This document shows positions 9,001 to 61,860 of a stretch of DNA of 64,000 nucleotides, piece after piece. The translations under genes and the position numbers were made by a program. The stretch is from contig CM049319.1 in NCBI GenBank assembly GCA_026874595.1, positions 1,557,501 through 1,621,500 on the forward strand, read 5' to 3'. The notes below the pieces were generated by a model. The model did no database searches, was not told the origin of the DNA, and was given only the letters and a program-made list of their open reading frames with translations. How positions within the stretch are numbered: the stretch's first letter is position 1; each line of letters begins with the position of its first letter. This stretch comes from Sipunculus nudus. Its lineage: Eukaryota > Annelida > Sipuncula > Golfingiida > Sipunculidae.

Positions 9001-12000
9001 TAGTATATAAGGTACTTATAGGGAGGGAGGGTACAACAGGCCTTCATTAGTATATATGGTACTTATAGGGAGGGAGGGTACAACAGGCCTTCATTAGTAT
9101 ATAAGGTACTTATAGGGAGGGAGGGTACAACAGGCCTTCATTAGTATATATGGTACTTATAGGGAGGGAAGGTACAACAGGCCTTCATTAGTATATAAGG
9201 TACTTATAGGGAGGGAGGGTACAACAGGCCTTCATTAGTATATAAGGTACTTATAGTGAGGGAGGGAACAACAGGCCTTCATTAGTATATAAGGTACTTA
9301 TAGTGAGGGAAGGTACAACAGGCCTTCATTAGTATATAAGGTACTTATAGTGAGGGAGGGTACAACAGGCCTTCATCAGTATATAAGGTACTTATAGGGA
9401 GGGAGGTTACAACAGGCCTTCATCAGGATATAAGATACTTATAGGGAGGGAGGGTACAACAGGCCTTCATCAGGATATATGGTACTTATAGTGAGGGAGG
9501 GTACAACAGGTCTTCATTAGTATATAAGGTACTTATAGTGAGGGAGGGTACAACAGGCCTTCATTAGTATATAAGGTACTTATAGGGAGGGAGGGTACAA
9601 CAGGCCTTCATTAGTATATAAGGTACTTATAGTGAGGGAGGGTACAACAGGCCTTCATCAGTATATAAGGTACTTATAGGGAGGGAGGGTACAACAGGCC
9701 TTCATCAGGATATAAGATACTTATAGGGAGGGAGGGTACAACAGGCCTTCATCAGGATATATGGTACTTGTAGTGAGGGAGGGTACAACAGGCCTTCATT
9801 AGTATATAAGGTACTTATAGTGAGGGAAGGTACAACAGGCCTTCATTAGTATATAAGGTACTTATAGTGAGGGAGGGTACAACAGGCCTTCATCAGTATA
9901 TAAGGTACTTATAGGGAGGGAGGGTACAACAGGCCTTCATTAGTATATATGGTACTTATAGGGAGGGAGGGTACAACAGGCCTTCATTAGTATATAAGGT
10001 ACTTATAGGGAGGGAGGGTACAACATGCCTTCATTAGTATATAAGGTACTTATAGGGAGGGAGGGTACAACAGGCCTTCATTAGTATATAAGGTACTTAT
10101 AGTAAGGGAGGGTACAACAGGCCTTCATTAGTATATAAGGTACTTATAGGGAGGGAGGGTACAACAGGCCTTCATTAGTATATAAGGTACTTATAGTGAG
10201 GGAGGGAACAACAGGCCTTCATTAGTATATAAGGTACTTATAGTGAGGGAGGGTACAACAGGCCTTCATTAGTATATATGGTACTTATAGGGAGGGAGGG
10301 TACAACAGGCCTTCATTAGTATATAAGGTACTTATAGGGAGGGAGGGTACAACAGGCCTTCATTAGTATATAAGGTACTTAAAGTGAGGGAGGGTACAAC
10401 AGGCCTTCATTAGTATATATGGTACTTATAGGGAGGGAGGGTACAACAGGCCTTCATTAGTATATAAGGTACTTATAGTGAGGGAGGGTTAAACAGGCCT
10501 TCATTAGTATATATGGTACTTATAGGGAGGGAGGGTACAACAGGCCTTCATTAGTATATAAGGTACTTATAGGGAGGGAGGGTACAACAGGCCTTCATTA
10601 GTATATAAGGTACTTATAGGGAGGGAGGGTACAACAGGCCTTCATTAGTATATATGGTACTTATAGGGAGGGAGGGTACAACAGGCCTTCATTAGTATAT
10701 AAGGTACTTATAGGGAGGGAGGGTACAACAGGCCTTCATTAGTATATATGGTACTTATAGGGAGGGAAGGTACAACAGGCCTTCATTAGTATATAAGGTA
10801 CTTATAGGGAGGGAGGGTACAACAGGCCTTCATTAGTATATAAGGTACTTATAGTGAGGGAGGGAACAACAGGCCTTCATTAGTATATAAGGTACTTATA
10901 GTGAGGGAAGGTACAACAGGCCTTCATTAGTATATAAGGTACTTATAGTGAGGGAGGGTACAACAGGCCTTCATCAGTATATAAGGTACTTATAGGGAGG
11001 GAGGTTACAACAGGCCTTCATCAGGATATAAGATACTTATAGGGAGGGAGGGTACAACAGGCCTTCATCAGGATATATGGTACTTATAGTGAGGGAGGGT
11101 ACAACAGGCCTTCATTAGTATATAAGGTACTTATAGTGAGGGAGGGTACAACAGGCCTTCATTAGTATATAAGGTACTTATAGGGAGGGAGGGTACAACA
11201 GGCCTTCATTAGTATATAAGGTACTTATAGTGAGGGAGGGTACAACAGGCCTTCATCAGTATATAAGGTACTTATAGGGAGGGAGGGTACAACAGGCCTT
11301 CATCAGGATATAAGATACTTATAGGGAGGGAGGGTACAACAGGCCTTCATCAGGATATATGGTACTTGTAGTGAGGGAGGGTACAACAGGCCTTCATTAG
11401 TATATAAGGTACTTATAGTGAGGGAAGGTACAACAGGCCTTCATTAGTATATAAGGTACTTATAGTGAGGGAGGGTACAACAGGCCTTCATCAGTATATA
11501 AGGTACTTATAGGGAGGGAGGGTACAACAGGCCTTCATCAGGATATATGGTACTTATAGGGAGGGAGGGTACAACAGGCCTTCATCAGTATATAAGGTAC
11601 TTATAGAGAGGGAGGGTACAACAGGCCTTCATTAGTATATGGTACTTAAAGGGAGGGAGGGTACAACAGGCCTTCATCAGGATATATGGTATTTATAGGG
11701 AGGGAAGGTTCAACAGGCCTTCATCAGGATATAAGATACTTATAGGGAGGGAGGGTACAACAGGCCTTCATCAGGATATAAGATACTTATAGGGAGGGAA
11801 GGTACAACAGGCCTTCATTAGTATATGGTACTTATAGGGAGGGAAGGTACAACAGGCCTTCATTAGTATATGGTACTTATAGGGAGGGAAGGTACAACAG
11901 GCCTTCATTAGTATATGGTACTTATAGGGAGGGAAGGTACAACAGTCCTTCATTAGTATATGGTACTTATAGGGAGGGACGGTACAACAGGCCTTCATTA

Positions 12001-13690
12001 GTATATGGTACTTATAGGGAGGGAAGGTACAACAGGCCTTCATTAGTATATAAGGTACTTATAGAGAGGGAGGGTACAACAGGCCTTCATTAGTATATGG
12101 TACTTAAAGGGAGGGAGGGTACAACAGGCCTTCATCAGGATATATGGTACTTATAGGGAGGGAAGGTACAACAGGCCTTCATTAGTATATGGTACTTATA
12201 GGGAGGGAGGGTACAACAGGCCTTCATTAGTATATAAGGTACTTATAGTGAGGGAGGATACAACACGCCTTCATCAGGATATAAGATACTTATAGGGAGG
12301 GAAGGTACAACAGGCCTTCATTAGTATATATGGTACTTATAGGGAGGGAGGGTACAACAGGCCTTCAATAGTATATGGTACTTATAGTGAGGGAGGGTAC
12401 AACAGGCCTTCACTAGTATATATGGTACTTATAGGGAGGGAGGGTACAACAGGCCTTCATTAGTATATATGGTACTTATAGGAAGGGAGGGTACAACAGG
12501 CCTTCATTAGTATATGGTACTTATAGGGAGGGAGGGTACAACAGGCCTTCATCAGGATATAAGATACTTATAGGGAGGGAAGGTACAACAGGCCTTCATT
12601 AGTATATATGGTACTTATAGGGAGGGAGGGTACAACAGGCCTTCAACAGGATATATGGTACTTATAGGGAGGGAGGGTACAACAGGCCTTCATCAGGATA
12701 TAAGGTACTTATAGGGAGGGAGGGTACAACAGGCCTTCATCAGGATATATGGTACTTATAGGGAGGGAGGGTTAAACAGGCCTTCATCAGGATATAAGGT
12801 ACTTATATGGAGGGAGGGTACAACAGGCCTTCATCAAGATATATGGTACTTATAGGAAGGGAGGGTAAAACAGGCCTTCATTAGTATATGGTACTTATAG
12901 GGAGGGAGGGTACAACAGGCCTTCATTAGTATATAAGGTACTTATAGGGAGGGAGGGTACAACAGGCCTTCATCGGGATATATGGTACTTATAGGGAGGG
13001 AGGGTACAACAGGCCTTCATCAAGATATATGGTACTTATAGAGAGGGAGGGTACAACAGGCCTTCAATAATACATGGTACTTATAGTGAGGGAGGGTACA
13101 ACAGGCCTTCATTAGTATGTAAGGTACTTATAGGGAGGGAGGGTACAACAGGCCTTCATCAGGATATATGGTACTTATAGGGAGGGAGGGTACAACAGGC
13201 CTTCATTAGTATATATTGTACTTATAGGGAGGGAGGGTACAACAGGCCTTCATTGGTATATATGGTACTTATAGGGAGGGAGGGTACAAAAGGCCTTCAT
13301 CAGGATATATGGTACTTATAGGGAGGGAGGGTACAACAGGCCTTCATCAGGATATATGGTACTTATAAAGAGGGAGGGTACAACAGGCCTTCAATAATAT
13401 ATGGTACTTATAGTGAGGGAGGGTACAACAGGCCTTCATTAGTATGTAAGGTACTTATAGGGAGGGAGGGTACAACAGGCCTTCATTAGTATATATGGTA
13501 CTTATAGGGAGGGAGGGTACAACAGGCCTTCATTAGTATATATGGTACTTATAGGGAGGGAAGGTACAACAGGCCTTCATTAGTATATATGGTACCTACG
13601 GAGGGAGGGTGCAACAGGCTTTTATTTGTATATGGAACTTATAGGGAGGGAGGGTACAACAGGACTTCATTAGTATATGGTACTGGTGGC
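1..13690. repeat. 47-bp minisatellite array, left end outside window
   Basis: Roughly 290 head-to-tail copies of a 47-bp unit, with 45- and 46-bp variants that lose one or two bases of the TATATAA/TATATGG end. Each unit has a G-rich core GGGAGGGAGGG or GTGAGGGAGGG, then TACAACAGGCCTTCAT and an AT-rich TAGTATATAAGGTACTTAT part. Copies differ at a few recurrent sites (TTAGT/TCAGG, TAAGG/TATGG, GGGA/GTGA). Rare variants recur at fixed distances, which shows large segmental duplications within the array. Units become more irregular after about 11700, and the array stops near 13690, some 256 bp before the glycosyltransferase start codon. It begins before base 1, so its full size is unknown. Short open frames inside it are by-products of the repeat. 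Confidence 0.98.
11815..12046. repeat. homogenised 45-bp sub-block of the minisatellite
   Basis: Here the unit is 45 bp, ending TAGTATATGG instead of TAGTATATAAGG, with GGGAGGGAAGG as core, and it repeats five to six times almost unchanged. Because 45 is divisible by three, a minus-strand frame stays open and would encode a 15-residue repeat. There is no sign that it is translated. The block looks like a recent local expansion of one variant unit. Confidence 0.8.
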
Positions 13691-13935: not shown

Positions 13936-13945
13936 TTACTTTCAG
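13936..13945 (+). other. 3' splice site just upstream of glycosyltransferase ATG
   Basis: TTACTTTCAG is followed directly by ATGATGG. The pseudogene copy on the other strand has the same arrangement (TTCTTCAG then ATCATGG), so both copies probably had a 5'UTR intron ending right before the start codon. This supports the start at 13946 over the in-frame ATG at 13895. The upstream exon would lie within or beyond the minisatellite and cannot be placed. Confidence 0.6.
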
Positions 13946-15028
13946 ATGATGGAGCAAAAGTACCCAGACGGTCTTAAAGATAGTGCTCTCTGTAACATGA
14001 ATCGGAAATTCGTGTCCATTAAATTCATGTTGTTTGTGTCTGCTATTATGTTTGTGACTGGAGTTACTGTTGGAATGTGGGAGACAATTTTCAGTTACCA
14101 AAATGAATTCTCAAGTCTACCTGAGTCATATACAAATCAAGAAAACAACACCGACAAAATATGGGAGAACGTCCCCGCTTGCAAAAATGATTTGACAGCA
14201 AGACTGAAGAATGATTCTTTACAAGGAGAACAAGTAGAATACAAAATCCCGAACGTAGTGCATTATCAGTGGTATTCAGATAAACCCCAGGTGTTTCCAT
14301 TCACGGCCTACCTGAGTGTGATGAGCGTGTTCCGCTTTCAGAAGCCTTGTAGGATATACTTCCACACCAACATGGAGCCGTATGGGAAATACTGGAGCAT
14401 GACCAAATGCCTTCCATCTTTTGAAGTAGTCAAGACAGAACCACCTAAACAGTTGTTTGGGACAAAAATTGCAAATAGGTTTGACACATCTTATTCAAAT
14501 GTTGGTCGCTTGATGGTGCTTCACCGTAATGGTGGTATATATCTAGACACAGATGTACTTATTCTAAAATCTCTGGACACGTTACGTGAACATGAGTTTG
14601 TTATTGGCTATCAAGATGACCGTAAGACCGTTTGCAGCGCTGTTTTAATGTCAACGCCGTCCAATCCTTTGTTGAAATTATGGATGGAGCATTTTATATT
14701 TGACTACAAACCAACCATCTGGGCTTACAATATGCAGGCTGTACCTTCCTCAATTCTGAAGCGATATCCTGAACTGGCGTATATAGTAGAAAAAGAATTC
14801 CACCGGCCAAGTTATGTCGAATTGGATAATATATATAAGGAAGAGAATTATGACTGGAGTAATAATTATGCACTGCACTTATGGAGCAACATCATGAAAC
14901 AATATAGATTTAGATATGATTCCATCACTCAAGATAACATAAACAACATAAAAAGCACAGTGGGACAGATAGCCAGGTATATACTTTACCGTAATTCATC
15001 GCTTATGGATTTATTTTATGAGTGTTGA
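13946..15028 (+). CDS. Golgi type II glycosyltransferase, A4GALT/A4GNT-like (GT32 family)
   Basis: A 360-residue protein, close to the usual length of about 350 for lactosylceramide alpha-1,4-galactosyltransferase and alpha-1,4-GlcNAc transferase. Seen: a short cytoplasmic tail; one hydrophobic segment near residues 27-44 (type II anchor); a variable stem with NxT/S sites; the domain start IPNVVHYQW at 101-109; and the metal/nucleotide-sugar motif GGIYLDTDV with D201-T-D203. The C-terminal part contains YALHLWSN, resembling the conserved late His-Trp region. By family it would transfer a sugar from a UDP donor to a glycolipid or glycoprotein in the Golgi lumen; donor and acceptor cannot be read from sequence. 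All coding sequence is in one exon. The start is placed at the ATG after a splice acceptor; an in-frame ATG at 13895 would add 17 residues but is probably intronic. The 47-bp array ends 256 bp upstream. A damaged inverted copy lies at 21495-22528. Confidence 0.9.
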   Translation: MMEQKYPDGLKDSALCNMNRKFVSIKFMLFVSAIMFVTGVTVGMWETIFSYQNEFSSLPESYTNQENNTDKIWENVPACKNDLTARLKNDSLQGEQVEYKIPNVVHYQWYSDKPQVFPFTAYLSVMSVFRFQKPCRIYFHTNMEPYGKYWSMTKCLPSFEVVKTEPPKQLFGTKIANRFDTSYSNVGRLMVLHRNGGIYLDTDVLILKSLDTLREHEFVIGYQDDRKTVCSAVLMSTPSNPLLKLWMEHFIFDYKPTIWAYNMQAVPSSILKRYPELAYIVEKEFHRPSYVELDNIYKEENYDWSNNYALHLWSNIMKQYRFRYDSITQDNINNIKSTVGQIARYILYRNSSLMDLFYEC

Positions 15029-21290: not shown

Positions 21291-21312
21291 TCCGATGAAT
21301 GTCTATGTAGAA

Positions 21313-21545
21313 TGTGTCTGGCAATTTGGCCGATCGTGCTGCTCTGGGTTTTATGTAGGATGTGTCTGGCAATTTGGCCGATCGTGCTGCTCTGGGTTTT
21401 ATGTAGGATGTGTCTGGCAATTTGGCCGATCGTGCTGCTCTGGGTTTTATGTAGGATGTGTCTGGCAATTTGGCCGATCGCCCTGCTCTGGGTTTTATGT
21501 AGGATGTGTCTGGCAATTTGGCCGATCGTGCTGCTCTGGGTTTTT
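21313..21545. repeat. 48-bp tandem repeat at pseudogene 3' end
   Basis: Five copies of a 48-bp unit start at 21313, 21361, 21409, 21457 and 21505; the + strand unit begins TGTGTCTGGCAATTTGGCCG. They are nearly identical; one carries GCCCTG in place of GTGCTG. Read on the minus strand, the unit overlaps the 3' end of the glycosyltransferase pseudogene and resembles the part of the intact gene encoding VGQIARYIL, so the array appears to have grown from the gene's own 3' coding region. Being a multiple of three, it keeps frames open on both strands. Confidence 0.93.
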
Positions 21546-22528
21546 TATGCTCTCACGGGAAAGCGAGTTATACTTGTCTTCCTTATTTCTGAAGGCGTTG
21601 TTCCAAAGGTGCAGCGCATAATTGTGACTCCAATCTAAACTGTGTTTCTTGTATATATCATCCAATTCATGGAAACTTGGACGGTGAACTTCTTGTTCTA
21701 CTATATACGCTAGTTCAGGATATCGCTTCAGAATTGCAGATGGTACAGCCAGCATATTATAACCCCAGCGGGTTGATTTATAATCAAATATGAAATGTTC
21801 CAACCATAATTTCAGGAAAGCGTTTTCAGGCGTTGACATTAAAAACGCACTGCAAACGGTCTTACGGTCATCTTGATAGCCTATAACAAACTCATGTTCA
21901 CGTAACGTGTCCAAGGATTTCAGAAGAAGTACATCTGTGTCTGAATATATACCACCATTACGGTGAAGCACCAACAAGCGACTAACTTTTGAATAGGATG
22001 TACGAAAAATATTTACAATTCTTCTCCCAAACAACTGTTTAGGTGGTTCTGTCTTGACTACTTCAAAAGATGGAAGGCATTTGGTCATGCCCAGTATTTT
22101 CCATGAGGCTCCAGGTTGGTGTGGAAGTATATCCTACAAGGCTTCTGAAAGCGGAACACGCTCATCACACTCAGGTAGGCCGTGAATGGAAACTCCTTGG
22201 GTTTATCTGAATACCACTGATAATGCACTACGTTCGGGATTCTGTACATTTTATTGTTGGTGTTGTTGTTTGACTTATTTGCTGTTTTATTTTTGCAAAC
22301 GAATATTCTGCCAGATTCTACCGATATTAATTTGTAGATATTTTGACGACTCGGTCAGACTTATTTATGGTTCAGATTGCAATCTAGAAATGTTGTCCAT
22401 ATTTCAAACATAACTCCGGACACAAACACAACACTGCACACAACCAGCAGGAATTTCAATGAAACTCTTTTCCGGTTTTTGTTAATGGCTAAACCAGCTG
22501 TAATTCCGATTGGGTACGTTTGGTCCAT
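21495..22528 (-). pseudogene. broken inverted copy of the A4GALT/GT32-like glycosyltransferase
   Basis: Homologous over its length to the intact gene at 13946-15028. The start ATG at 22528 follows a splice acceptor (CAG at 22534-22532), as in the intact gene, and the membrane anchor is recognisable. Lesions seen: an in-frame TAA at 22363-22361 in the stem region and a TGA two codons on; a one-base deletion near 22090, just after the GKYW-equivalent codons, shifting frame; and loss of the last 20 or so codons where the 48-bp array begins. After the frameshift an open stretch retains the D-T-D motif (GGIYSDTDV, with Ser for the Leu of the intact copy) and most of the catalytic domain. The stem cannot be aligned with the intact gene, while the segment around the IPNVVHYQW codons is nearly identical. 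No full-length product is possible from this copy. Confidence 0.92.
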
Positions 22529-22569
22529 GATCTGAAGAAAAAACGATAAGAGCAATGCCGCATACATTG

Positions 22570-34080: not shown

Positions 34081-34305
34081 GGCAGGGAGCAAGTCAGATG
34101 GGACTGAAATAGGGCATTCGGTAAAACCCGGAATATCCGCGGAATTTCCGAGGCTATTCCGAGATTCCTCAGAATAAAAGTTAGAGCAATTTCCCTCGGC
34201 TGAGGACCAATGACAGTGGGAAAAAATATCTAAACATAAAGATTGAATAATAATCTTTATATTTTTATCAGGGTTCAGTTCTAATCTTCTACTATTCAAC
34301 GTTTT
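34081..34305 (-). repeat. dispersed repeat, copy 1 of an inverted pair
   Basis: Read on the minus strand this holds GAAGATTAGAACT, AAGATTATTATTCA, CCGAGGGAAAT, AACTTTTATTC and a TCGGAA / TTCCG-rich stretch ending TTTTACCGAATGCCCT. The same phrases occur in the same order on the + strand at 43205-43395. Two opposite-strand copies 9 kb apart show a dispersed family of at least 200 bp. Confidence 0.75.
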
Positions 34306-35436
34306 TCCGAGCCAGATCTGACCGGCCCGGGACGAAGGCAATGTTGTTGGGGCATCATACCTAAATCCGGCGACTTTAGGACAATTCTGGGAGAGTATAA
34401 ACAGCTGACAGGCCTGGATAAAAAAGATATGACCAAATTGCCGGTAAAGCGAGCGAATTTGAGATTTATCAGATATACTCTTCTTACTGATAATAAGATT
34501 ATGGATTATTGTGGAAGGCCATAACTAAAGAAAGGGACGTGACATGGAGGCTTCAACAGTATCTGTGTCTACATTTACCACTGGCATTATTAAAATTCCA
34601 TTTTGTTATTAGTTTAATGAACAAAGAAGACAACTTCCTCAGAAAAAAAAATAATTTATTAACAACTGAAGCATAATAATCAAATGAAATATTTAATAAT
34701 TGAAAGTAAATTCAGCCTCATGAAATACATCAGATACCAGTTATCAATGTATGAAATATTTACAAATGACAAGTAAAAAGATGAAACACAAGTGATACCA
34801 GGTTTCAATTTATGCATTATGCAAAAGAAAAGTAAAATGATCATGTAATATACTCCCTATACCAGGTGTTAATGTATGTATTATATTTACAAATGAAAAG
34901 TGAAATCATCATCTTGAAATACATTATGTACGTTACCGGGTGATAATGAATATGAATGAGAGGAGAGGAATTAATATAGGGCTGTGCCCTGTTTTCCAAT
35001 CCTCGTTGATGAATTTGAGATTCTAAACCATTGAATGCATGAAATATTTGCATATGAAAAGCAAATCGATAATGAAGTACATGTTACACAAGGTGTAAAT
35101 TAAGACATGAAATATTTACATAATGAAAAGCGAAATGGCCATCATGTCAAATACATGTTATACCAAGTGACAATTATTGAAATATTTACAAATGAAAAGC
35201 GAAATGATCATAAAATACACGTTTTGCCTGGTGTCTATGTATGAACAATTTACAATGTAACATTGAGTAACAGTTAATGAATACTATAGTACATTTATAA
35301 TTTTGGTTCTAACAGAGAAATAGTAAAAATAACACAAATACAGAAAATATGGATATAAATTAACACACACCCTGACGTATATCAACATATGATTACGTAT
35401 GTAATTAGCCGTGACAATCCGACTCAGTAGGCAATC
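34306..35436. other. no gene seen; loosely repeated AAATATTTACA / AATGAAAAG phrases
   Basis: Between about 34690 and 35260 there are recurring phrases such as GAAATATTTACAAATGAAAAG, roughly every 70-90 bases, suggesting a very degenerate tandem repeat. No coding region was recognised. Confidence 0.45.
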
Positions 35437-35440
35437 AGAT
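35437..35440. other. target-site duplication of LTR element, left
   Basis: AGAT immediately before the left LTR; the same AGAT follows the right LTR at 40588-40591. A 4-bp duplication fits LTR retrotransposon integration. Confidence 0.8.
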
Positions 35441-35828
35441 TGTAGGATTTTCCCCACAGATAATAGAAAACGACACATAATTTTAGGTTTAAATTACCAA
35501 ATGACCGAAAGATCTGTCCTTTTGAATTATACTGCCAGTCTGATAGTTATAAACGTGATAAACAGGGAGCTAGAAGGGTCGCGGCAGACTACTAAACTTC
35601 GCCTTATGTCGATTATCCTTTAGCCCCTTAACACGTCTAAATGACTAAACCTAGTGCTGACCAGACGTGGGCCTGTGTGGCCCACGTCTGCATCATTCAG
35701 CTGCACGCGGAAGAGTGAGGAGGACGGGACATTCCTGGCCGTAGGCCAGCCTACTTTACAATAGGGGTGGCATTAATGGGCGAGTCCAAATACTGATAGC
35801 TGACCGGTAGTAGGCCTCATATCTTACA
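35441..35828 (-). repeat. 3' LTR (388 bp)
   Basis: The + strand reads TGTAGGATTT...TCTTACA, so TG/CA ends on either strand. It contains a perfect 12-bp stem CAGACGTGGGCC/GGCCCACGTCTG at 35662-35690 with a 5-base loop. Apart from two substitutions and a 2-bp indel in that loop it matches the other LTR. Confidence 0.92.
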
Positions 35829-35841
35829 CTCTTCCCCCCTT
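35829..35841 (-). other. polypurine tract of LTR element
   Basis: Minus strand AAGGGGGGAAGAG ends exactly at the 3' LTR boundary, where plus-strand DNA synthesis would be primed. It sets the element's orientation as minus. Confidence 0.75.
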
Positions 35842-36960
35842 ATTTGAAAAAAAAAAAAAACAAAGTTTTTTTTTTTTTTTGTTAAATAAAGAAGACATCT
35901 TGGCCATATACAGGCAAAAGCAATTTTGAACAGACGCACATTACAGCCTCAAGGTAAAAAAAACCTGGGGACAGATATTCCAGGAAAAACCATGAGCTTG
36001 TAAATAATTGTGCCTATAACAGAGCTGGCAGTATTTGTTTTATATAACTGCAATATCTTGATCTGTGCCCCATCGCACAATTTTGTAAATTGGTAAGTTT
36101 ATTCAAATAAACACATCAGTTAGTAATGGAATGATAACAACATGGAATAGCATTTCATGTATCAGTAAAACATTAATGTTTGCAAAATATTTTGCATAAT
36201 GTCCAAATTTGGCTGCACTGTGTCAGCATAGCACATAAGAGAGTCCTTCTCAGAAATTACTCAGCATTTAGTATTCAAAAATGTCTTTCATCATAACTAT
36301 GCACAAGCAGGCAAGTCCATAGGCAGCCGTGTTGTAACTTGTAGCTGTGCTGAACATAATGTTGGGTGCAGGAGGCAGAACATGTACGTCTTACTCCTGC
36401 AAAGAAATAAAACAACGCCGCAGTATCTATTCCACACAAATTATATCACAACATATAACAATAATGAACAACTCTGACTTAAAATTCAATGTGATTTGTT
36501 TTTGTTTTTTATAACTACCGCTTACAGCTTTTAGGTCTGAATAACTTTGACATGCCATACCGCTCTGGTTAATGTAACAATTATCATATACAGGTTGAAT
36601 GGAGAATACGGTCAGGTCATAACAATACATTACCAGGGCTTATATATGTACCTAAATGGATGCAAACTTGCATGAATAACAATTTAACTCAAAGTATAAT
36701 ACGATGTTCTCATAATTAATGTTTTAATTAATTAAGTTGTGCAAGTCATGTTATACTAAAAGGAAGAAACTAAATAGCCTTAAACCGTAAGCTGTAATAA
36801 AAGAATACTGTATCCGTTTGCAAGGAGACCAACAGAACAGTTGGTCAAATTATGATTGAAATATCACACTATTTATTATAAATATCACACTATTTATTCA
36901 ATCCTTTAATGCGAGAGAGTGAACTAGCTAATAACAAGCTAACAAATATATATTGGGTAC

Positions 36961-37255
36961 AATTCGTAAATTAACATATCCGTTTTTAATAGATTTAATT
37001 GTTTACATTTAATATTGATATCCAGTAATTTAAAAAGTATACTACTAGAAATATTAATGTGCTGTTCTTTTTAAATGCCCAATGTTGTTCAAATTACTAA
37101 ACTGTGTATAATTCCTAAATAAACATATCCGTTTTTAATAGATTTATTTGTTTACATTTAATATTGATATCCAGTATTTTTAAAATGTATACTACTAGAA
37201 ATATTAATGTGCTGTTTATTTTAAATGCACTATGTTGTTCAAATTACTAAACGGT
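36961..37255. repeat. 149-bp tandem duplication inside LTR element
   Basis: AACATATCCGTTTTTAATAG occurs at 36973 and 37122 and the two copies stay alignable through ACTACTAGAAATATTAATGT to TTGTTCAAATTACTAAAC. The copies differ at several positions, so the duplication is older than the LTR pair's divergence. Confidence 0.92.
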
Positions 37256-39394
37256 GTTGGCATCCCCAAATATTACAATATGTTTCCTGTTTCGTAAATG
37301 CCACCTTTAACACACTTGACAGTCACCAATCAGGCATACTTCTCAGCCAGATTGAACTAATCTGGAATTACTCGACTTATCAGTATTTCCTGACACTCGA
37401 AAGGTATACAAAGCTACTGCACCTGATAAGCGTTTTGACAGCTGACTGCTTAATAAACAGAGACATGACATAAGGCCAGCTGCTAAGTTGATATCAGATT
37501 TTATATATACAGGATTACATAGTGTGAATTGTGGAGCACTGATAAAAGAAGGGCGATTATGGGGGTTTGGGAGATCACAAAGGCTGGTGGCCGTTGCGTG
37601 TTACATCATCTGATACCAGTGTGTAGGCTCCACAAATATGCCTGAACTTGTGACTTGTATTATCTCACTGTGAATGCACATGACTGAGCATGTGATAGAT
37701 TATTTCAATAAAGCTATTTACCTACTTTAGAAATACCTCTTTCAGTTGCCACAGTTGTTAACTATAGGCTTTATTGTTCTAGGCAAAACAGAAATATATT
37801 AAAACTGTATCTCACAGAGAACTAGTTACGTTAATTTAATATATATTATTCAGAGGGGAACGCCTATGTCTGGTTTGTTATTTAGTAATATTTACCACTA
37901 AAGAGTTTTCATTAAAAGTTTAGAGAATTGACTTTAACCACACAAAAATACCCATTACAACTCAAATCTAAAAGATTACTGCCCTTGGCCATTAAACGAC
38001 AAATTCTGCACCTGCACTTAGTATCAAATTATAGGTTATCCACTTGAGCCTTAGAGTTGTACATTTTTTATTTATTGGTATTTGTAAAATTTTTTTTTTC
38101 TATTTTTATTATTATTTATCAATATTTCATAGACTCAAACTACAAGATTAGTATAACTACTACTTTCACAGGTTGATGTTATGGAATTTTGGTGCTTGCT
38201 TTTAATCTGTTGAGAAAATTCATTTAAAAATGAGAAACTACTGGTTTTATTTTTCGTACATCAAATTGTAATTGTTAAATAAATTATGATCTTAAGCATC
38301 TAAATAACTATGAAATGTACCTTATTAAATTTTTATTTTATAGTATATTCTTTAACAGGCCTTTCCCCTTTGGGTTAAGTGAATGAAATTTTGTCTGCTT
38401 GGCCCCGGAATATGGGAGCAAACTGATTATCAGATGAAACATGTCACTAATTGCTGCCCCGGCAAGTGAATGACAGAAAATTTCTAGACGTTCATATTTA
38501 TGACTTTTTAAAGGGTGTGCATAGTTTTTCAGAATGGACTGCACAAATACACTTATTGGTTTCCTTGGATTTTTTTTTTTTTAATGTTTACGTATTATTT
38601 TAAAGCTAAAGTGTTTTAATCTTTTAAAAGTTATAAATTGTAAGATCTTGTTCAGCCACAATATTAAACCCTTGAAACCAGCCTAATAGATCTCACAAAG
38701 ATATACAAAAATGAAGAATGATTTTATTATTTTTAGACTGTATTTTATGCTTACTTTAACATTTATTTATTTTAATGGTTGTTATATGGATTAATAATTG
38801 GACATATTGATATAACAATATTTTACTCCGTTTGTGTTTTTTTTTTTTTAAATTTTTTATATCAACTTTAAACTCAAGTCTACACTTAATTACTCTATCT
38901 ATACATATATATGTAGCACGTAATCAGAATAATTAATAAATGAACGATTGGCTGTCCCCTTTTTATCATACAATTATAAAGTTCTGCATAGCGAAAAAAA
39001 AAGGATTTATAGAGCCTTACAATATATATATACACACACATATCAACGCTTACTTGACCTAACAACCTGTAAACCTCATCTTTTACATAAACTTAATTAG
39101 CACACTGCTCCACCTCTATACAATGAGTTCATGCTGCCTTACCTGGCCCTTTACTATTAACAAATACACTCAAAGTAACATTTTAAACAGTTTCTACATT
39201 TCATGTACATCAAAACAATAGTGGCACATACCTGTGTCAATAAGTACAATACTTTATTACATTTTCTCACATTATAGGCCTACCTCCTGGCCAATCATTG
39301 ACACCACACTTGTGTCATTCTTTACACACTGGTTGCTCCAAGGCACAGTTTTTCATATTAACAATAATGACACTGCCAGTCCTAAAAGGGTGCG

Positions 39395-39750
39395 CGTAGT
39401 GAAAGGCTCAAACTATCGCGGCGGCTACTTATCTTTCGCCTTATGTCGACAAGTGTTTGAACCCTTTCAGCGCCAAGGTCATTTTTCAGGCCATTGAACT
39501 ACACCAGTACCCTATTTCCAGCAACTCAGGGCCATTTCTATACAGCCAGTCCAGTCCTCGTTTGAGCGCTATTGGAAAGCTTTCAAAGTATCGCGGCAGG
39601 CTACTACTATACCGGTTCGCCTTATGTCGACACATGTTTGAACCTTTCGAGCGCTGAGGTAATTTTTCATGCCATTGAACTACAGCAGTTCCCTATTTCC
39701 AGCCACATAGGGCCATTTCTCATGTCATTTACAGCAATTAAATATTTCTA
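39395..39750. repeat. about 180-bp tandem duplication carrying LTR-like motif
   Basis: Two imperfect copies each contain TATCGCGGC, TCGCCTTATGTCGA, GCCATTGAACTACA and CCCTATTTCCAGC in order. The 14-base TCGCCTTATGTCGA also occurs once in each LTR (35599-35612 and 40360-40373), preceded by the same CGCGGCAG phrase, so part of the LTR appears to have been copied into the interior. Confidence 0.85.
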
Positions 39751-40182
39751 GCCTCATTGCTAATCATGGTTATTGCCAATATAAGCGATCTTATAAGGTA
39801 CAGGCATGTCTCCGTTACTACTTTATAAATGTTCGTGTCGGTTAACAGCGGCCACGCTTACCTATGCTATGGCAATTCTCTTTAAAAGGTCACAGAGGCC
39901 AATTTCTCATAATATGTACATCAAATCTATTCAGCCAGCCTCTTAAGGCCTTTTTGATACTTACTATAGTATATGACATTTAACACAAACACAAAATTCA
40001 CATACCGTAGTATTTCCAGGAACCTGTAACTTCTGGATTGGGTGGTCTTCTTCATCTTCACTCTTCTTCATTTATGTACCTAACTACTTTATGTGTGGCA
40101 GTTCATTTTTAAAATTTTGAAGAACAAATATTGCCAAAAATGCAGGTTCGAATCACTGCTCGTAAATATTTTGGATTTACAA

Positions 40183-40200
40183 GCTGGCAACCGCTCGCCA
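40183..40200 (-). other. primer-binding-site-like sequence of LTR element
   Basis: Minus strand TGGCGAGCGGTTGCCAGC begins one base after the 5' LTR end. TGG pairs with the CCA end of a tRNA, as in a normal PBS. The matching tRNA species was not identified. Confidence 0.6.
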
Positions 40201-40201
40201 A

Positions 40202-40587
40202 TGTAGGATTTTCCCCACAGATAATAGAAAACAACACATAATTTTAGGTTTAAATTACCAAATGACCGAAAGATCTGTCCATTTGAATTATACTGCCAGT
40301 CTGATAGTTATAAACGTGATAAACAGGGAGCTAGAAGGGTCGCGGCAGACTACTAAACTTCGCCTTATGTCGATTATCCTTTAGCCCCTTAACACGTCTA
40401 AATGACTAAACCTAGTGCTGACCAGACGTGGGCCTGTGGCCCACGTCTGCATCATTCAGCTGCACGCGGAAGAGTGAGGAGGACGGGACATTCCTGGCCG
40501 TAGGCCAGCCTACTTTACAATAGGGGTGGCATTAATGGGCGAGTCCAAATACTGATAGCTGACCGGTAGTAGGCCTCATATCTTACA
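40202..40587 (-). repeat. 5' LTR (386 bp)
   Basis: Near-identical to 35441-35828. The same 12-bp perfect stem lies at 40423-40449, here with a 3-base loop. It should hold the element's promoter; no strong TATA box was seen on the minus strand. Confidence 0.92.
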
Positions 40588-40591
40588 AGAT
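40588..40591. other. target-site duplication of LTR element, right
   Basis: AGAT directly after the LTR end, matching the AGAT at 35437-35440. Confidence 0.8.
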
Positions 40592-41215
40592 AATTGGGCT
40601 GGTAAGCCTATTCGAGTCGTGATATAAGTTATATCTATAGGAATGTATCGCAGTGGCCTTGCATCAGTGGTCTTGATCGGCCCATAATCTCAATTTTATG
40701 CTAAAAATAATGAATTTACACAATAGTATACATGTGAGCTCACAACCCAAACTGAAACACCGTCTCCATGGACACGGGTCATTTCCTGTATCGCTTGCAA
40801 GCTGCCTGCGTCCTGTAACCCGTGCCAGCCATGCACGTGTTCATGCGGACATACTGAATTCAACAAACACGCCAACGGGTTTACCAATGGGCTGATTTAA
40901 AACTGAAATTTTCTCGCTCATGTTTGGTATTATTAGAAAGAACACAAAAAATGCTAACGATTGGTCTTGTTTATGTTGATTGACAGTTTACCTGTTGGCC
41001 ATGAAGCTTTGTCAGGAATGACGAAAATATTTGCATCTTCCTCAGACATAGATGTAATGACACGCGGGCGCAAGTAATCTGGTCGTAATGCCAGAGGGTC
41101 GATATGACGCAAGTATTTAATCAATATATGTATGTATATATATAAGTGTATATAATTATATATATATATTACTATTTGATACAATTTTGAATATTAGTTC
41201 ATGTTTTAAATATTC

Positions 41216-41220
<5 letters not shown>

Positions 41221-41266
<46 letters not shown>
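41221..41266. repeat. TA microsatellite
   Basis: A TA tract of more than 40 bp within a wider AT-rich stretch from about 41120. Confidence 0.95.
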
Positions 41267-41269
<3 letters not shown>

Positions 41270-41439
41270 CAATTATATATACTTGAACATTTTATAAAAC
41301 AATTATACATCATAATCTATAGACATTATATATGAAATAATAATGAAATTTATGTGCTGTGAAAGAATTAAACGATGTTATGCAACAGGTACAAATTGAT
41401 TTGTCAACAGAAATGGAGAAACAGTTTTTCATTTAGGTG

Positions 41440-42157
41440 GTTTTAAGTGGGCCGGCCAAGTTGTCGTGGGCTGGAATCTCCGAGAATTCTCCATGATGAT
41501 GTCCGTTACACCGCTCAGGCAATAACTAGGGTTTCTACGCCGCAGTTTTGCCTCTTCGGGTACCCCCCCCCCCCCCCCCCCCCCTCTTTGCACTGAGGTC
41601 GCCAGAACTGACACGTAGGCCAGCCAGCCAGGTCCGGCCCGCCCTCGCTGACCGACCACCACCGGGGAATCCCCCAAGTAAACCCGGGAGCCTGAGCCTA
41701 GCAACCAGCCAGTAATGTCCGAGCGTCACCGGCCTACCCCTGGACTGCCGTGAGTCCTGCCCTGAGCCTTGTCCCTTTCGACCAGGTACCGTGTTCGTTC
41801 GATCGGAGCCTTTTCTGGAGCCTTTCCTGGTTCTTGTGCCATCATGCTTGAGCCTTGTCCCTGCTGGTCCTGACCGGACCCCCGGTTTTTACGTCTCGGA
41901 GCCTTGTCCCTGACCCTTTCGGGATCCCCTCAACTTTTATCCACCAAACGGCTGGCTCTTCAGGGCCAGGTTCCATACTGTCGGCAACGGGCTGGCCTAC
42001 TCTTCTATCGAAAAACAGTATGGGATCTCTTACGTGCCCATCCCCTTCTGGACACGGGACCGCCATTTTACGTCCTCATCCGATGGACGGCCCGTATTTT
42101 GCTTTTGCAGTCGGGCGCTGCAGAGCCCGGAGCCTTTCTACCCCTGCCCCACTTTTT
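41440..42157 (-). mobile_element. GC-rich 3' part of LINE insertion, with poly-C
   Basis: Base composition jumps from AT-rich to GC-rich near 41440 and stays so to about 43065, as expected of a foreign insertion. This part lies downstream of the LINE reading frame on the minus strand and is probably its 3' untranslated region. It contains a C run of about 20 at 41564-41584 and repeated GAGCCTTGTCCCT phrases (41764, 41851, 41900). No host gene was recognised. Confidence 0.5.
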
Positions 42158-43062
42158 CTAGTGGGGTGATGATATCCGTTTGCCACTGATTTTTTGCCAG
42201 TCGAGCCACATTTTGAGGTCTTTATAGAACTTCTCTTGCTTAACCTTTTCGACATAGCCTTTGCTCAACCTTAGAATGTGGTCTTTCACATATTCTATTT
42301 CTGCCTTCTCGTGAAGCACAGATACTCGGGTTCGAGGCGGGAGTCTCAAGGCCGTCCTTAAGGCTCTGTTTTGAAGCCGTTGAAGTGTCTTAATGTGGTG
42401 CTCTTTGGCTGAGATCAGGGCTATGCAGCCGTACATCATGACCGGTCTGATCCAGGCTTTATAAAGGTATACATATCAAACTTTGGGTTGACATGCCCCC
42501 TGTCCCTGCTTTTAGCACTCTTAAGCAGTTTAGTCTCGCTTTGACCCTCTGTTCGATATCCTTTATATGAGCCGCCCATGTGAGTCTCTTATCAACCGTC
42601 AGCCCCAGGAATTTTACCTGGTCTGTGAATTGAATTGGTTCTCCGGCCAATTTCAGTTCTGGCGCTTTGTCGGCCTTGCTGCCTTTCAGGTGCCTACCAA
42701 ACTTGCAAGCCTGCGTTTTTGTCGCATTGACTCTTACCCGCCATCTGGCGCACCACTCGGTCACTTCATCTAGACCTGCCTGTAGCCTGGGTGCTGCTCT
42801 CTTGCTATGTGTCCATAGCGCAGTATCATCCGCAAATTGGCTCGTCGCCCCCGTGCGGACTCCCCCTTTCTCGGACAGGCTAGGCATGTCGTTGACGTAT
42901 ATGACGTAGAGCAGCGGGCTGAGAGCTGAGCCCTGTGGTGTGCCAGCAGCGGGTTCGATCTCGTGCGACTTAGCGTCACCTACTCTGACCCATAGCTTCC
43001 TATCTCTTAGGAAGGATGAGAGAATCCTCACGATGCGAGCCGGCAGTTTAGCATGCGTTTAG
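42158..43062 (-). pseudogene. jockey-like LINE reverse transcriptase remnant
   Basis: Minus-strand protein fragments carry reverse transcriptase motifs in order: KLPARIVRILSSFLRDRKLW, GTPQGSALSPLLYVIYVND, then SQFADDTALW with the catalytic Ala-Asp-Asp, and QVKFLGLTVDKRLTWAAHI. After a frameshift near 42460 the frame resumes with YKAWIRPVMMYGCIALISA, LQRLQNRALRTALRLPPRTR and ends at SGKRISSPH. It lacks the endonuclease and the first part of the reverse transcriptase, so it is 5'-truncated and dead. The order and phrases fit jockey-clade non-LTR elements. Confidence 0.92.
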
Positions 43063-43204
43063 CCTCAGTCTGTGTCATGTAAACGTGAACGGCCTGTACG
43101 GTAGGAGGAACGAGATTTCTCCTGACGCTTCCGAAATATGAGTAAACATGGCGGTCGTCCAGGGCCTTTTGAAAAGATGTTTATAAAATCGTCCGCTGTA
43201 CCTT

Positions 43205-43395
43205 AATAATTGAAGATTAGAACTAAACCCAAAGAAATGGGAAGATTATTATTCATTCCTTTGGTATTGGTTCTTTTTTCCGACTTTCTTGAGTCGTCCG
43301 ACGAGGGAAATCGCTTTAACTTTTATTCCGAGATATCTCGGAATTTCCGAGGATATTCCGGATTTTACCGAGTGCCCTGAAATAGACCTTATCCG
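43205..43395 (+). repeat. dispersed repeat, copy 2 of an inverted pair
   Basis: Contains GAAGATTAGAACT, AAGATTATTATTCATTCC, CGAGGGAAAT, AACTTTTATTCCGAGATATC and TTTTACCGAGTGCCCTGAAA in the same order as the minus strand of 34081-34305. Confidence 0.75.
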
Positions 43396-46300
43396 GAACT
43401 CCCTGTAAGCTGGCCTGCAGGTGGTACAAACAGTGTTTAGTAGCCAGAGGCTGTGACTCACAGCAGTAGGCTGGACATAGAGCTGTTTGTATAATCTAGG
43501 GTCCTTATGTCTTAGATTTATCTGTAAATGACCATGGATAATTAGAATTAAATGCTGCTAGATGGATAACATAGGTAGCTACTGAAGTCACACATAGAAG
43601 CCATAAGATTTATTAAAATCCCAAATTAAGATGACAGGAGAAATAGATCAGACTGGATACATGTGCTTATCACTTCATGAATGTAAACAAGACAGAGACA
43701 GTGTTTATATCATGCCTAATTTTAACTCAATTTTTTTATCTATCAATTAGGGTGTTATTTGGATGAATGACAGTATTTTGGGGGAAAAAATCAATTATAT
43801 CTTTCAAACATGACTTGGATTATTTGCCAAAGACATGTAGAGCTTTTATCACTGGATTATTGCAAAGTATTGCAAACAATCAACTGATTAAGAGGATAAT
43901 ATAAGGCATAAGCATAAATTAAGATGAAAAATAATAATCCACATGATGAAGTAACATAAATTGTTGCACTAAATCATAGTGAAAAATAAATTTAACATTT
44001 ACTGAAGATTTCAACATTTATGAAACAGCTAATTTCTATTTCCTACTGATTGACAATGACCAAAAATATTAATAAGGAATATACACCAGTGATTACTTAG
44101 GGTCTAATAATGGCACCAAATGTAAAATATATTTCACATGTAAAAAATGTAACTCAATCTCTGATGGGGTACGTGGTTCCTTATGTGTTGGCTCCTCTCG
44201 CCCTGAGGTGAGACTTCACCCTGAATTTAAAGAAATATCTGGTTAATATCAACCTGATTGGCAGATTTAAAATATAAATTGTAATTTTAAAGAGGTTCAA
44301 CATTGTTCCGACAAGTTTTGTAGCTTAAGGTACACTAGCCATGAAAACATGACTCGCATACCTTTATTTGAATAACAGACTGGGCATGTAGTTATCCGCT
44401 AGTTTGATCTGCTGCTTTTCCAACAAACAGAATCAGTCCATCTGCTTACAGATAATCCAGGAATTCCTCAAATCATTCTGTTGAAAAAAAAGTGGAAAAA
44501 GAGGCCATTACACAGAACTGACTTTTATACACAGAGTAAGTGATATATAATATGACCAGAGAGCGCTGGAGCAGGCACTTTTTGTACCACCAACAGGCTG
44601 CATTGACATGCCAGATGGCCCTCATTATTGGACAGTTCCGGAGTAGATCTACTGATATGCAGTGGCTATTACTTAATTCATTTAACCTTTACATTTTATA
44701 TCCTGTTGTATATAGGATATACCATGCAAGTGCATATTTTTAGTTTCTTACCTGCTTTTGGATGACACATGAAATATACATAGGTGTCACACCACTAGAT
44801 ATGTGAACGACCAGGTTCTTTTAACTGTCAAACCAACTGGCTGAAACCCATGCATACGTACACTCAATAAGATAAATAAGACATGATTTAACAAAAACAA
44901 ATCAATACATTAAAGAACACATACACCTACGTTTCTCTGAAGAGGCAAACCATGCACATAGGCACTGATGATCATAAAAGTTTGATTATAATCACAGAAA
45001 AAAACACCAAGTCCGTTAACCACAGTACACAGAGTAGTCCCTTGTTTACACTTCTCCTGATCACATGACACACGTGACATCGGAATTTTGCGCTGCCCGG
45101 CTCACCGTTTTTTCGCGCTGTGTTCACAGAACAATCAGTCCGTTTTTGATACACGGAGCTCCGACCACCAGTAGTCCCTCGTTGGAGTACTGTTATAACT
45201 CTCAAGACACAATTCAGGCAGTACTCACTAATAAGCGCACAGACGATTCTATCTTGACTTAGAGTCAATGTGTTTTACAGCTGATGTCTCCTTGAATCAA
45301 TTTTTCTCTAGTTAACCGCATATGCTTTCAAACGAATATGCGATATCCAGTACCTACATAGTTACGCGTTTAAATAAATGTCCTCAGTCTGCTCCTGGAA
45401 GCGCTCACAACAGGTTTATATCGCCAAATTTACCAGTCCGTCGGCAAAAATGCGATACTCGCTCTGAAGTCCGTTACAGAAAATTTACAGTGGCCTTCCT
45501 CAGACACCGACAATCTACGCTTATAGACATCATCTCTCAGCTGTCTAAACTCTGACACAGACCTTCCCCTGGACTGCAGATATCGTCAAGCTACACGAAC
45601 TGGTGCGCTGACCGGGCATATGTAGCGAATTCCGTCTTAATCATGTATTATATATGCTTGCAGACGTCACAAATCCTGACGTCTTCTGGCTAAACACTAC
45701 TTCCTATTATGCTGACTACCAATTATTACATGAATCTTAATATGGACACGTATTCAGAGACAATTAAAACATTGAGAAAGCCAAATCTAAACAGCTGCAC
45801 ATCCTTTGAAGTCTACAACAAACAATCGTTACTATAAAGACCGCAAAACAGAAACGGCTCCCACGGAATTAAACTGTACTAAAATTGACATCAAACGAGA
45901 CACGTATGCTCTCTTACAAAAGTTCTTACGCTAATATCTAAACATGATACACCATATAAATGCAGTACAGTAAATTATCAAAACTATCATCTGGTTATAC
46001 TCCCTATGAGAACATGCAATACAATAACTGAGACACAGTCCTTTGGTGACAACATGTAATGACGGCAGTATACATATAAAACTAATGCTGAAAAGATTAT
46101 AATCAAGTATACACTCGAGTCAGAGTAACTTACATTTTTAGACATTGGAGCATTCTGAATTTACTAAGTATGTCCCAGCCCTGCCTGGGCTTTAATATTA
46201 GAGTTTACATATAAAATGCTTAAAATAAAACGTGATCAGGGGATTCCATGTACTGATAAATATACCTCATATCAGCTCTCATCAGTAAAGCCCTGTAAAG

Positions 46301-56189: not shown

Positions 56190-56258
56190 TCGCCTGAATC
56201 GGGAATCGAACCTACGATCTCTGGAGTAGGAGCCCTACACGCTACTAAGTGAGCCGTG
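56190..56258 (-). mobile_element. tRNA-derived SINE head or tRNA relic
   Basis: Minus strand reads GGCTCACTTAGTAGCGTG (A-box-like) and, about 40 bases later, GGTTCGATTCC at 56212-56202, a perfect B box. Spacing suits a tRNA-type Pol III promoter. The acceptor stem does not pair properly, so a working tRNA is unlikely. Downstream sequence to about 56110 could be the SINE body, but no tail or TSD was found. Confidence 0.5.
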
Positions 56259-59640: not shown

Positions 59641-59954
59641 CCCTGTAAGCACTGTTGATTTAATTTTCACAGCATATATATATATAAGGATTTAATCTTT
59701 TAAAACCTGAAATTTCAAAGGAATTGATTGAAAAGGGTAGCTTTTATTCAGGTTTTCATACACCATGTCAAGTGTTATTTACATCTAGCCCACCTAGTAG
59801 TACAGCTTTCACTTGCATTATGTAACCCACCCCAGGCAGCTTGCCTTGGCTCAGCTTGGCCACTACCAGCAGGCTTCCCCTCTGCCCTGCACTCCCCCCC
59901 CCCCCCCCCCACCAGGTGGTGCATAAACAAGATGATTATTGTTAATATGTTATT

Positions 59955-61860
59955 GTATCCACAAACAGAGTTTTGCGGATACTATGTTTTCAGCCCACCG
60001 CCGCCGCCGCGTAGGTGTCCGGAGAACTCCTCCTTAACCTCTTGGCGGAATTTTACGAAACCCGGGATTATGTTCGGGTCACATGTGAACTGCTGCGCCC
60101 CGATTTTGTTTTGACCTCTGACCTTTCCTCTGCGCTCTGCGTCTGTTTGTGCGTCTGTTCCCACACATAAACCCACATATCTCGGGAACCGTTTGACCAA
60201 TCAGGAAATTTTTTTTGCACAAATGTAGCCCTTGGAGAGCTTTATAACATACCCAAAAAATGGTGGCGCCACCTGCAACCATGTTTGCACAGTGTCCATC
60301 TGTTCGTCTGCCTTGGGTTAAAATCACTCATATCTCTGCAGTGGTTTGCCTAATTCCCCTGAAATTTGGCATGTATATACATCCTGGATAGCTTTTCTGA
60401 TTTTATGACAGGTGGCGCCACCTACATTCACGTTTACGCTGCAGACATCCAAGCTCATATCTCGGGAACCGTTTGACCGATTTGGCCAAACTTTTGCATG
60501 TGTATAGATCTCACATAGCTCTTTATCATACGCAAAACTGGTGGCGCCACCTGCAGCCATTTTTGCACAGCTCCCGTCTATTTGTCTGCCATGGGATAAA
60601 ATCACTCATATCTCGGCAGTGGTTTGACATATCTGCCTAAAATTTTGCAGGTTTATACATCCCTGACAGCTCTCTTGATTTTATGACAGGTGGCGCCACC
60701 TACATTTTAGTTTATGCAGCAGATATCCAAGCTCATATCTTGGGAACCGTTCGACCGATTGGGCCAAAGTTTTGCATGTGTATAGTTCTCACATAGCTCT
60801 TTATCATACGCAAAACTGGTGGCGCCACCTGCAACCATTTTTGCACAGGGTCCATCTGTTTGTCTTTCAAGGGCAAAAATCACTCATATACATGTTCTAG
60901 TTATTTCTGTATTTGATTCATTCTTATTCTAGGCTATGCTACATTTTAAATTTTGTATTGTACTGCCAGGGTTACAATGATTAAAGTGCACATTTAATTG
61001 TGTCCACAAATTTGTGTATTGCTATGAAAGTGTGGATGTTCATTAGATAAGTAATTCCTTACTTCAGAAGAGTAAAAACTTCACCACGTGTGAAATTGAC
61101 TATTAATTGTATCCGCCAAAACAGAGTTTTGCGGATACTATGTTTTCAGCTGCACGCCGCCGCTGCGTAGGTGTCCAGAGAACTCCTCTGTAACCGCTGA
61201 GCGGAATTTGACAAAACCCGGGATTATGTTCGGGTCACATGTGAACTGCTGCGTCCATTTGTGTGTCTGTTTCCACACATAAACCCACATATCTTGGGAA
61301 CCGTTTGATGGATCAGGAAAATTTTTTTGCACAAATGTAGCCCTTGGAGAGCTTTATAACATACACAAAAAATGGTGGCGCCACCTGCAACCATGTTTGC
61401 ACAGTGTCCATCTGTTCGTCTGCCTTGGGTTAAAATTACTCATATCTCTGCAGTGATTTGACTAATTCACCTGAAATTTGGCATGCGTATACAACCTGGA
61501 TAACTTTTCTGATTTTATGACAGGTGGCGCCACCTGCATTCTAGTTTATGCAGCAGACATCCAGGCTCATATCTTGGGAACTGTTTGATCGATTGGGCCA
61601 AAGTTTTGCATGTGTATAGTTCTAACATAGCTCTTTATCATACGCAAAACTGGTGGTGCCACCTTCAACCATTTTTGCACAGCTCCCATCTGTTTGTCTG
61701 CCACAGGCTAAAATCACTCATAAACATATAGTGGTTTGACTTATCTGCCTCAAATTTTGCATATGTATACAACTTGGACGGCTTTCTGGATTTTGTGGAA
61801 GGTGGCGCAACCTACATACACCATTTGGCTGCAGACATCCATGCTAATATGCAACACTTC
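59955..61860. repeat. nested tandem repeat with GGTGGCGCCACC palindromes
   Basis: Half-units of about 125-155 bp, each containing the 12-base palindrome GGTGGCGCCACC, alternate in two types (one with CATATCTCGGGAACCGTTTG, one with AAATCACTCATATCTC). The palindrome occurs near 60264, 60410, 60541, 60690, 60819, 61377 and 61525, with degenerate forms near 61653 and 61800. A larger copy event repeats the start: GAGTTTTGCGGATACTATGT at about 59968 and 61123. Minus-strand frames across it are repeat by-products. The family is unknown; the style is of a dispersed invertebrate repeat. Confidence 0.88.

Follow-up and report, generated by a model that had tools for sequence, protein, structure and literature searches.

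A fairly young, complete long terminal repeat element without recognized protein genes in Sipunculus nudus

Large retrotransposon derivatives (LARDs) are long terminal repeat (LTR) derivatives defined structurally by a large size and an interior of several kilobase pairs without gag or pol, and they are common in plants. How protein-less LTR elements are recognized by their helpers is, to our knowledge, mostly open in animals. LARDs are listed as a non-autonomous order by PASTEC (PMC4008368), and the LARDs recorded in an animal, the salamander Ranodon sibiricus, include ones that show signs of being active at present (PMC9998948); a literature search for LARDs in molluscs returned no dedicated paper among the matches listed, which is not proof of absence, and the terms "LARD" and "non-autonomous" do not occur in the main text of a mollusc LTR survey (PMC6238403). 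The locus described here is a 5,147-bp element at positions 35441-40587 of a 64-kb window (the whole 64,000-nucleotide stretch analyzed, positions 1,557,501 to 1,621,500 of Sipunculus nudus contig CM049319.1), and it is likely a non-autonomous LTR retrotransposon of the LARD type, young and complete, carried on the minus strand and mobilized in trans. This kind of element is already known, and the locus is a well-delimited single case of it; the grounds are a pair of LTRs, a target-site duplication, TG/CA ends, a purine tract, a TGG start, the lack of recognized protein genes, and a repeated motif, all seen in the sequence. The motif, a pair of predicted hairpins at the primer site, and a stretch antisense to a tRNA T-arm are additions to an earlier model-generated reading of the same DNA (the original prediction).

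The element is structurally complete and reads from 40587 to 35441, with its 5′ end at 40587 (Table 1). The original prediction gave no orientation, and the minus-strand assignment is made because the purine tract abuts the left LTR and, in the minus-strand reading, a T-TGG start follows the right LTR. At the inner boundaries, the plus strand has CTCTTCCCCCCTT on the left and finishes with CTCGCCAA on the right; on the minus strand these become AAGGGGGGAAGAG just before one LTR and T-TGGCGAGC just after the other, with T as the first interior base (40201) followed by TGG (40200-40198). The polypurine tract contains 13 purines next to the 3′ LTR, as in LTR retrotransposons. The LTR termini are TGTAGG...TTACA, and the two LTRs, which are 98.97% identical by BLAST, differ in their alignment by two substitutions and one 2-bp indel. 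Target-site duplications of LTR retrotransposons are typically short (4-6 bp), and here a 4-bp AGAT duplication is flush with the LTR edges. The AGAT copies, the TG/CA ends, the TGG start, and the purine tract thus all mark the same two edges, a coincidence that chance would not produce. Alignment and sequence bear out the LTR lengths and differences given in the original prediction, as well as the TG/CA ends, the duplication, and the purine tract at the exact boundaries, and with them the completeness of the element; its wording of a start resembling a primer-binding site has the right strength, with the TGG located at the boundary but with weak tRNA complementarity.

Divergence between the LTRs (K = 0.0052) corresponds to an insertion age of ∼0.65 to 2.6 million years if 4e-9 to 1e-9 substitutions per site and year are assumed, rates that are not host-specific, with 95% limits of 0.3 to 9.4 million years at the slow rate. 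The element is thus fairly young, as originally proposed.

The six frames of the element were split at stops, and every piece that reached 35 aa, 70 in total, was scanned against Pfam at E-values up to 1, with no match to gag, protease, reverse transcriptase, RNase H, or integrase; this agrees with the predicted 4.4-kb interior without gag or pol and gives the element a multi-kilobase interior of the LARD type. A degenerate pol, which the original prediction named as contrary evidence, was looked for piecewise in the same Pfam scan and was not found. Nine families appear at E-values up to 1, none of the gag/pol type; the six with scores inspected all fall under their curated cut-offs, and the remaining three (LpqV, DUF6341, and HI0933_like) have E-values of 0.042 to 0.17. 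An apparent zinc knuckle on 38341-38580 is judged a chance match (E = 0.15, 10 residues, 12.2 bits versus a cut-off of 27). An identical scan of a neighboring control stretch of equal length (41001-46147) recovers RVT_1 at 8e-17 in 1 of 76 pieces. The longest open stretch in the interior is 91 aa, which is also the median for 200 first-order Markov copies; in half of these copies the longest stretch is at least as long. With the LTRs so little diverged, the element is unlikely to have lost its genes by decay since it inserted.

A two-block motif, TCGCGGC-N12/18-TTCGCCTTATGTCGA, with 22 block letters, has one copy in each LTR and two in the leader, with plus-strand starts at 35579, 39416, 39591, and 40340. 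The short matches between each LTR and the two leader sites emerged from BLAST of the element against itself, and the leader copies lie in tandem units (39408-39539 and 39583-39720) that are 175 bp apart, start to start. A relaxed scan that covered both strands and allowed as many as 6 mismatches over the 22 letters (up to 3 in the first block) and spacers of 6 to 25 finds no further copies in the 64-kb window, save an overlapping register of the 39416 copy; a stricter pattern recovers three of the four copies and has no matches in 100 shuffles of the window. Between the LTR and the leader copies all 22 of the 22 block letters agree, which is so by construction, the blocks having been picked after the agreement was seen, so that only the contrast with the flanks is informative. 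The flanks are 33% (46/139) and 42% (59/139) identical between LTR and leader, and 64% (92/144) identical between the leader copies in a three-way alignment, figures that stand without a control. This contrast is suggestive of selection on the blocks, or of a very local copying event.

Because its letters agree exactly between LTR and leader while the surroundings have diverged, the motif is a candidate recognition signal, with a possible role in packaging or regulation. Folded as RNA, the three motif-bearing stretches (one LTR and both leader copies) are not clearly above shuffles (z scores of 0.96, −0.41, and −0.65), leaving a hairpin role unsupported and making it more likely, as judged from these folding models, that the motif is bound by a protein. 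The motif has no matches in viral or prokaryotic contig collections, nor does a 36-nt LTR piece in the viral collection, which says little about the host, and a literature text search for the 15-nt block TTCGCCTTATGTCGA on both strands gave no match. For the question of helper recognition, the motif offers a concrete candidate signal, and it could also be used to search for the helper element.

The primer-site region was compared with 14 tRNA 3′ regions, none of them taken from the host. The longest contiguous match at the primer-binding site is weak, at 8 nt (Arg-ACG). For the first 46 interior nt in the sense direction, folding predicts a pair of adjoining hairpins (−17.6 kcal/mol), the most stable of 866 interior windows taken in 5-nt steps; when both strands of the entire sequence, excluding the satellite, are sampled in 23-nt steps, stability is equal or greater in 22 of 4,372 windows. 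Relative to dinucleotide shuffles, the effect for a 62-nt stretch is modest (z = −1.93; 9/200), and a third hairpin arising from the LTR end is predicted when 20 or 40 LTR bases are included. Directly beyond these predicted hairpins lies the T-arm box (40142-40154), which was spotted after the fact. Its antisense matches are 13 nt for Ser-CGA and Ser-AGA and 12 nt for Trp, with shorter matches of 10 nt for Ser-GCT, Leu, His, Gln, and Thr, and 9 nt for Arg-ACG. Of 2,000 Markov copies of the interior, 10 contain the T-loop core GGTTCGANTC on one strand or the other, and none has it within the first 100 nt in the same orientation; the core has one further occurrence in the 64-kb window, at 56203. 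An acceptor box combined with a T-arm box may constitute a bipartite primer site, which we offer as a lead by analogy with known split sites. Self-priming of the Tf1 type is not supported, the longest Watson-Crick match between the first 30 interior nt and the LTR being 6 nt; with G-U pairs allowed it reaches 10 nt, and the corresponding values for 60 shuffled LTRs average 9.1 and go up to 13. ARAGORN finds no tRNA genes in the window, and Rfam at gathering scores gives no matches there; on the element, Rfam returns only two chance-level microRNA matches (E-values of 3 and 3.9).

We infer that the element was copied through RNA and in trans, with an RNA that would retain cis signals only. The LTR would contain the promoter and R region, the primer site with its flanking hairpins would be retained as well, the motif repeated in LTR and leader would serve packaging or regulation, and the purine tract would be kept as a further cis signal. 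Gag, reverse transcriptase, and integrase would come in trans from an autonomous LTR partner within this genome, the integrase of which would make the 4-bp duplications. It is reasonable to suppose, with the original prediction, that such a partner exists, because a protein-less element with near-identical LTRs must be copied by the reverse transcriptase and integrase of another. A more elaborate proposal, which we consider speculative and rather improbable, is that these parts form a compact cis code in a long protein-less animal LTR element, in which the motif recruits a partner Gag or a host factor and the hairpins juxtapose the acceptor and T-arm boxes, giving the primer tRNA two points of attachment in the manner of Ty1. 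If so, the partner would be recognizable by the same motif without other similarity.

Several points weigh against reading the locus as a LARD mobilized in trans, beyond the limits of the motif comparison already given. There is no further LTR or interior match within the 64-kb window, and one copy cannot show a family; the partner element is purely inferred; and over 18 nt the Arg-ACG, Arg-CCG, Lys, and Asp tRNAs, among the 14 compared, tie for best at 8/18. The single copy would also suit a one-off derivative, in which a gag-pol element had its interior swapped for unrelated DNA by recombination or by template switching in reverse transcription and was inserted a single time, without belonging to any family of protein-less elements. 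This is consistent with an interior that is unlike anything else in the window and is A+T-rich (33% G+C versus 46% in the LTR). We nevertheless consider it unlikely, given that the tandemly duplicated leader units each carry the LTR motif, an arrangement that looks less like random filler than like a long shared evolution of LTR and leader, although this argument covers only the leader and not the rest of the interior.

Coding capacity is a further point of weakness for a protein-less LARD, as the interior has six open stretches of at least 80 aa (four plus, two minus) versus a mean of 1.66 in Markov copies, a surplus of moderate stretches that leaves room for a short unknown protein, and the reverse transcriptase piece recovered in the control is 199 aa and unbroken, and so does not gauge sensitivity to a finely broken pol. 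A short or highly diverged protein outside Pfam, or an interior gene with introns, would make the element partly autonomous, and the best Pfam scores of the element, NCD3G (E = 0.0025) and zf-FCS_1 (E = 0.0039), both on a sense-strand 56-aa piece at 36278-36445, could be read in this way. They are, however, under their curated cut-offs (18.1 versus 38.9 bits and 17.7 versus 26.6 bits), with ∼0.2 and ∼0.3 chance hits expected over the 70 pieces, and are judged to reflect composition because two unrelated families score on one short peptide; with the longest open stretch also at the random median, we regard a hidden protein as very unlikely. That the two repeats arose by chance or segmental duplication and are not LTRs is scarcely credible, with nothing in its favor beyond the absence of genes, and with the flush AGAT, TG/CA ends, TGG start, and purine tract all on the exact edges; the AGAT copies contradict, at this locus, the segmental duplicates lacking a target duplication that the original prediction had itself raised.

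Table 1. Coordinates of features of the LTR element in the window
Feature	Position	Strand	Basis
Target-site duplication AGAT, left copy	35437-35440	.	Sequence
3′ LTR, 388 bp	35441-35828	-	Self-alignment
Two-block motif, 3′ LTR, spacer 12	35579-35612	-	Pattern scan
Polypurine tract AAGGGGGGAAGAG, abuts 3′ LTR	35829-35841	-	Sequence
Interior without recognizable gag/pol, 4,373 bp, 33% G+C	35829-40201	-	Pfam scan, open reading frame counts
A-run/T-run inverted repeat beside polypurine tract	35839-35891	-	Sequence, folding
Two tandem copies of ∼150-bp unit, 92% identical	36954-37257	.	Repeat search
Leader unit, two in tandem, 83% identical over 138 aligned bp, motif in each	39408-39720	-	Self-BLAST, repeat search
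Two-block motif, leader copy 1, TCGCGGC-12-TTCGCCTTATGTCGA on +	39416-39449	-	Pattern scan
Two-block motif, leader copy 2, spacer 18	39591-39630	-	Pattern scan
13 nt antisense to tRNA T-arm (GCAGGTTCGAATC on +)	40142-40154	-	Sequence comparison
Two adjacent predicted hairpins over primer-site region (40185-40200, 40158-40184)	40158-40200	-	Folding
Primer-binding-site core TGGCGAGC, 8 nt complementary to tRNA-Arg-ACG 3′ end	40193-40200	-	Sequence comparison
5′ LTR, 386 bp	40202-40587	-	Self-alignment
Two-block motif, 5′ LTR, spacer 12	40340-40373	-	Pattern scan
Target-site duplication AGAT, right copy	40588-40591	.	Sequence

Other inverted repeats are present in the element. The one beside the polypurine tract consists of a 14-nt A-run and a 15-nt T-run and is predicted to form a hairpin (z = −2.49; 4/200 shuffles). 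The LTR has a perfect inverted repeat of 11 nt, the arms of which lie at 35663-35673 and 35679-35689 in the left copy, and the 2-bp indel falls within its loop. When folded as RNA, the LTR has a z score of −1.76, with 2 of 100 shuffles equally stable.

The element is flanked on both sides by inverted stretches that are 76% matching (34111-34296 and 43205-43378), the second of which sits just 5′ of the RVT_1 fragment in the control stretch (42462-43058, minus strand), itself apparently like that of a long interspersed nuclear element. Degenerate repeats are located immediately to the left of the element (34684-35255), with offsets of 67 to 68 bp in some stretches and larger ones in others. Elsewhere in the window, a 47-bp satellite of ∼292 copies (94% matches) occupies 1-13678 and extends to the left end, and an inverted glycosyltransferase-like pair (Gly_transf_sug; 13941-14890 and 21597-22536) is 80% identical in DNA; the second Gly_transf_sug open stretch (21498-22133, minus strand) enters 48-bp tandem repeats (21304-21544) at its 3′ end. 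An open stretch at 28071-28628 matches VWA_4, a von Willebrand factor A domain, with 27.4 bits versus a cut-off of 27, and repeats of ∼280 bp lie inside two larger copies, 83% identical, at 59952-61850.

Among described systems, the element resembles LARDs in its LTRs, its start resembling a primer-binding site, its polypurine tract, and its several-kilobase interior without gag or pol, so that the LARD-like structure originally proposed fits; LARD families are marked by multiple copies that have their interior in common, and the element is known here from one copy. The bivalve biv-TRIMs, variants of terminal-repeat retrotransposons in miniature (TRIMs), are also protein-less LTR elements, in which inverted repeats and partial tRNA similarity replace a clean primer-binding site, and for which no partner was found (PMC6934838). 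The element is likewise protein-less, and around the position expected for the primer site it too has inverted repeats and a partial tRNA resemblance, but TRIMs are shorter than 1,000 bp with terminal repeats of 100 to 250 bp (PMC6934838), whereas the element is 5,147 bp with LTRs of 386 to 388 bp. Animal Helenus elements, also found in bivalves, have 4-bp duplications and LTRs that contain a tRNA-like sequence, the longest in that study being 1,263 bp (PMC10886601). A 4-bp duplication is thus shared with the Helenus/Ajax (TRIMp3) group, but the element is longer and has no tRNA in its LTR; Rfam and ARAGORN give no tRNA or 5S match in LTR or interior, and the only tRNA-like stretch is the 13 nt antisense in the leader.

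The junction between 5′ LTR and interior is comparable to two further systems. Fungal GalEa Copia elements have a Conserved Hairpin Site, a 9-nt palindromic box and its complement, in place of a primer-binding site, while that of metazoan GalEa is TGGTAGCAGAGC (PMC5445492). The element likewise has a predicted hairpin at this junction, in the expected primer-site position, but with a TGG start and two predicted hairpins of another build, and TGGTAGCAGAGC is absent right after the 5′ LTR, where it reads TTGGCGAGCGGT. Ty1 and Ty3 use bipartite primer sites, with acceptor stem and T-arm both hybridizing in Ty3 (PMC5371799) and the segments lying close together in Ty1 (PMC5371799, PMC4974528). The element has comparable complementarity to both a tRNA 3′ end and a T-arm, although the tRNA with the longest match differs between the two (Arg-ACG at the 3′ end, 8 nt; Ser at the T-arm, 13 nt). 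It is possible that one tRNA serves both boxes, for which Arg-ACG, with a T-arm match of 9 nt, would be the candidate.

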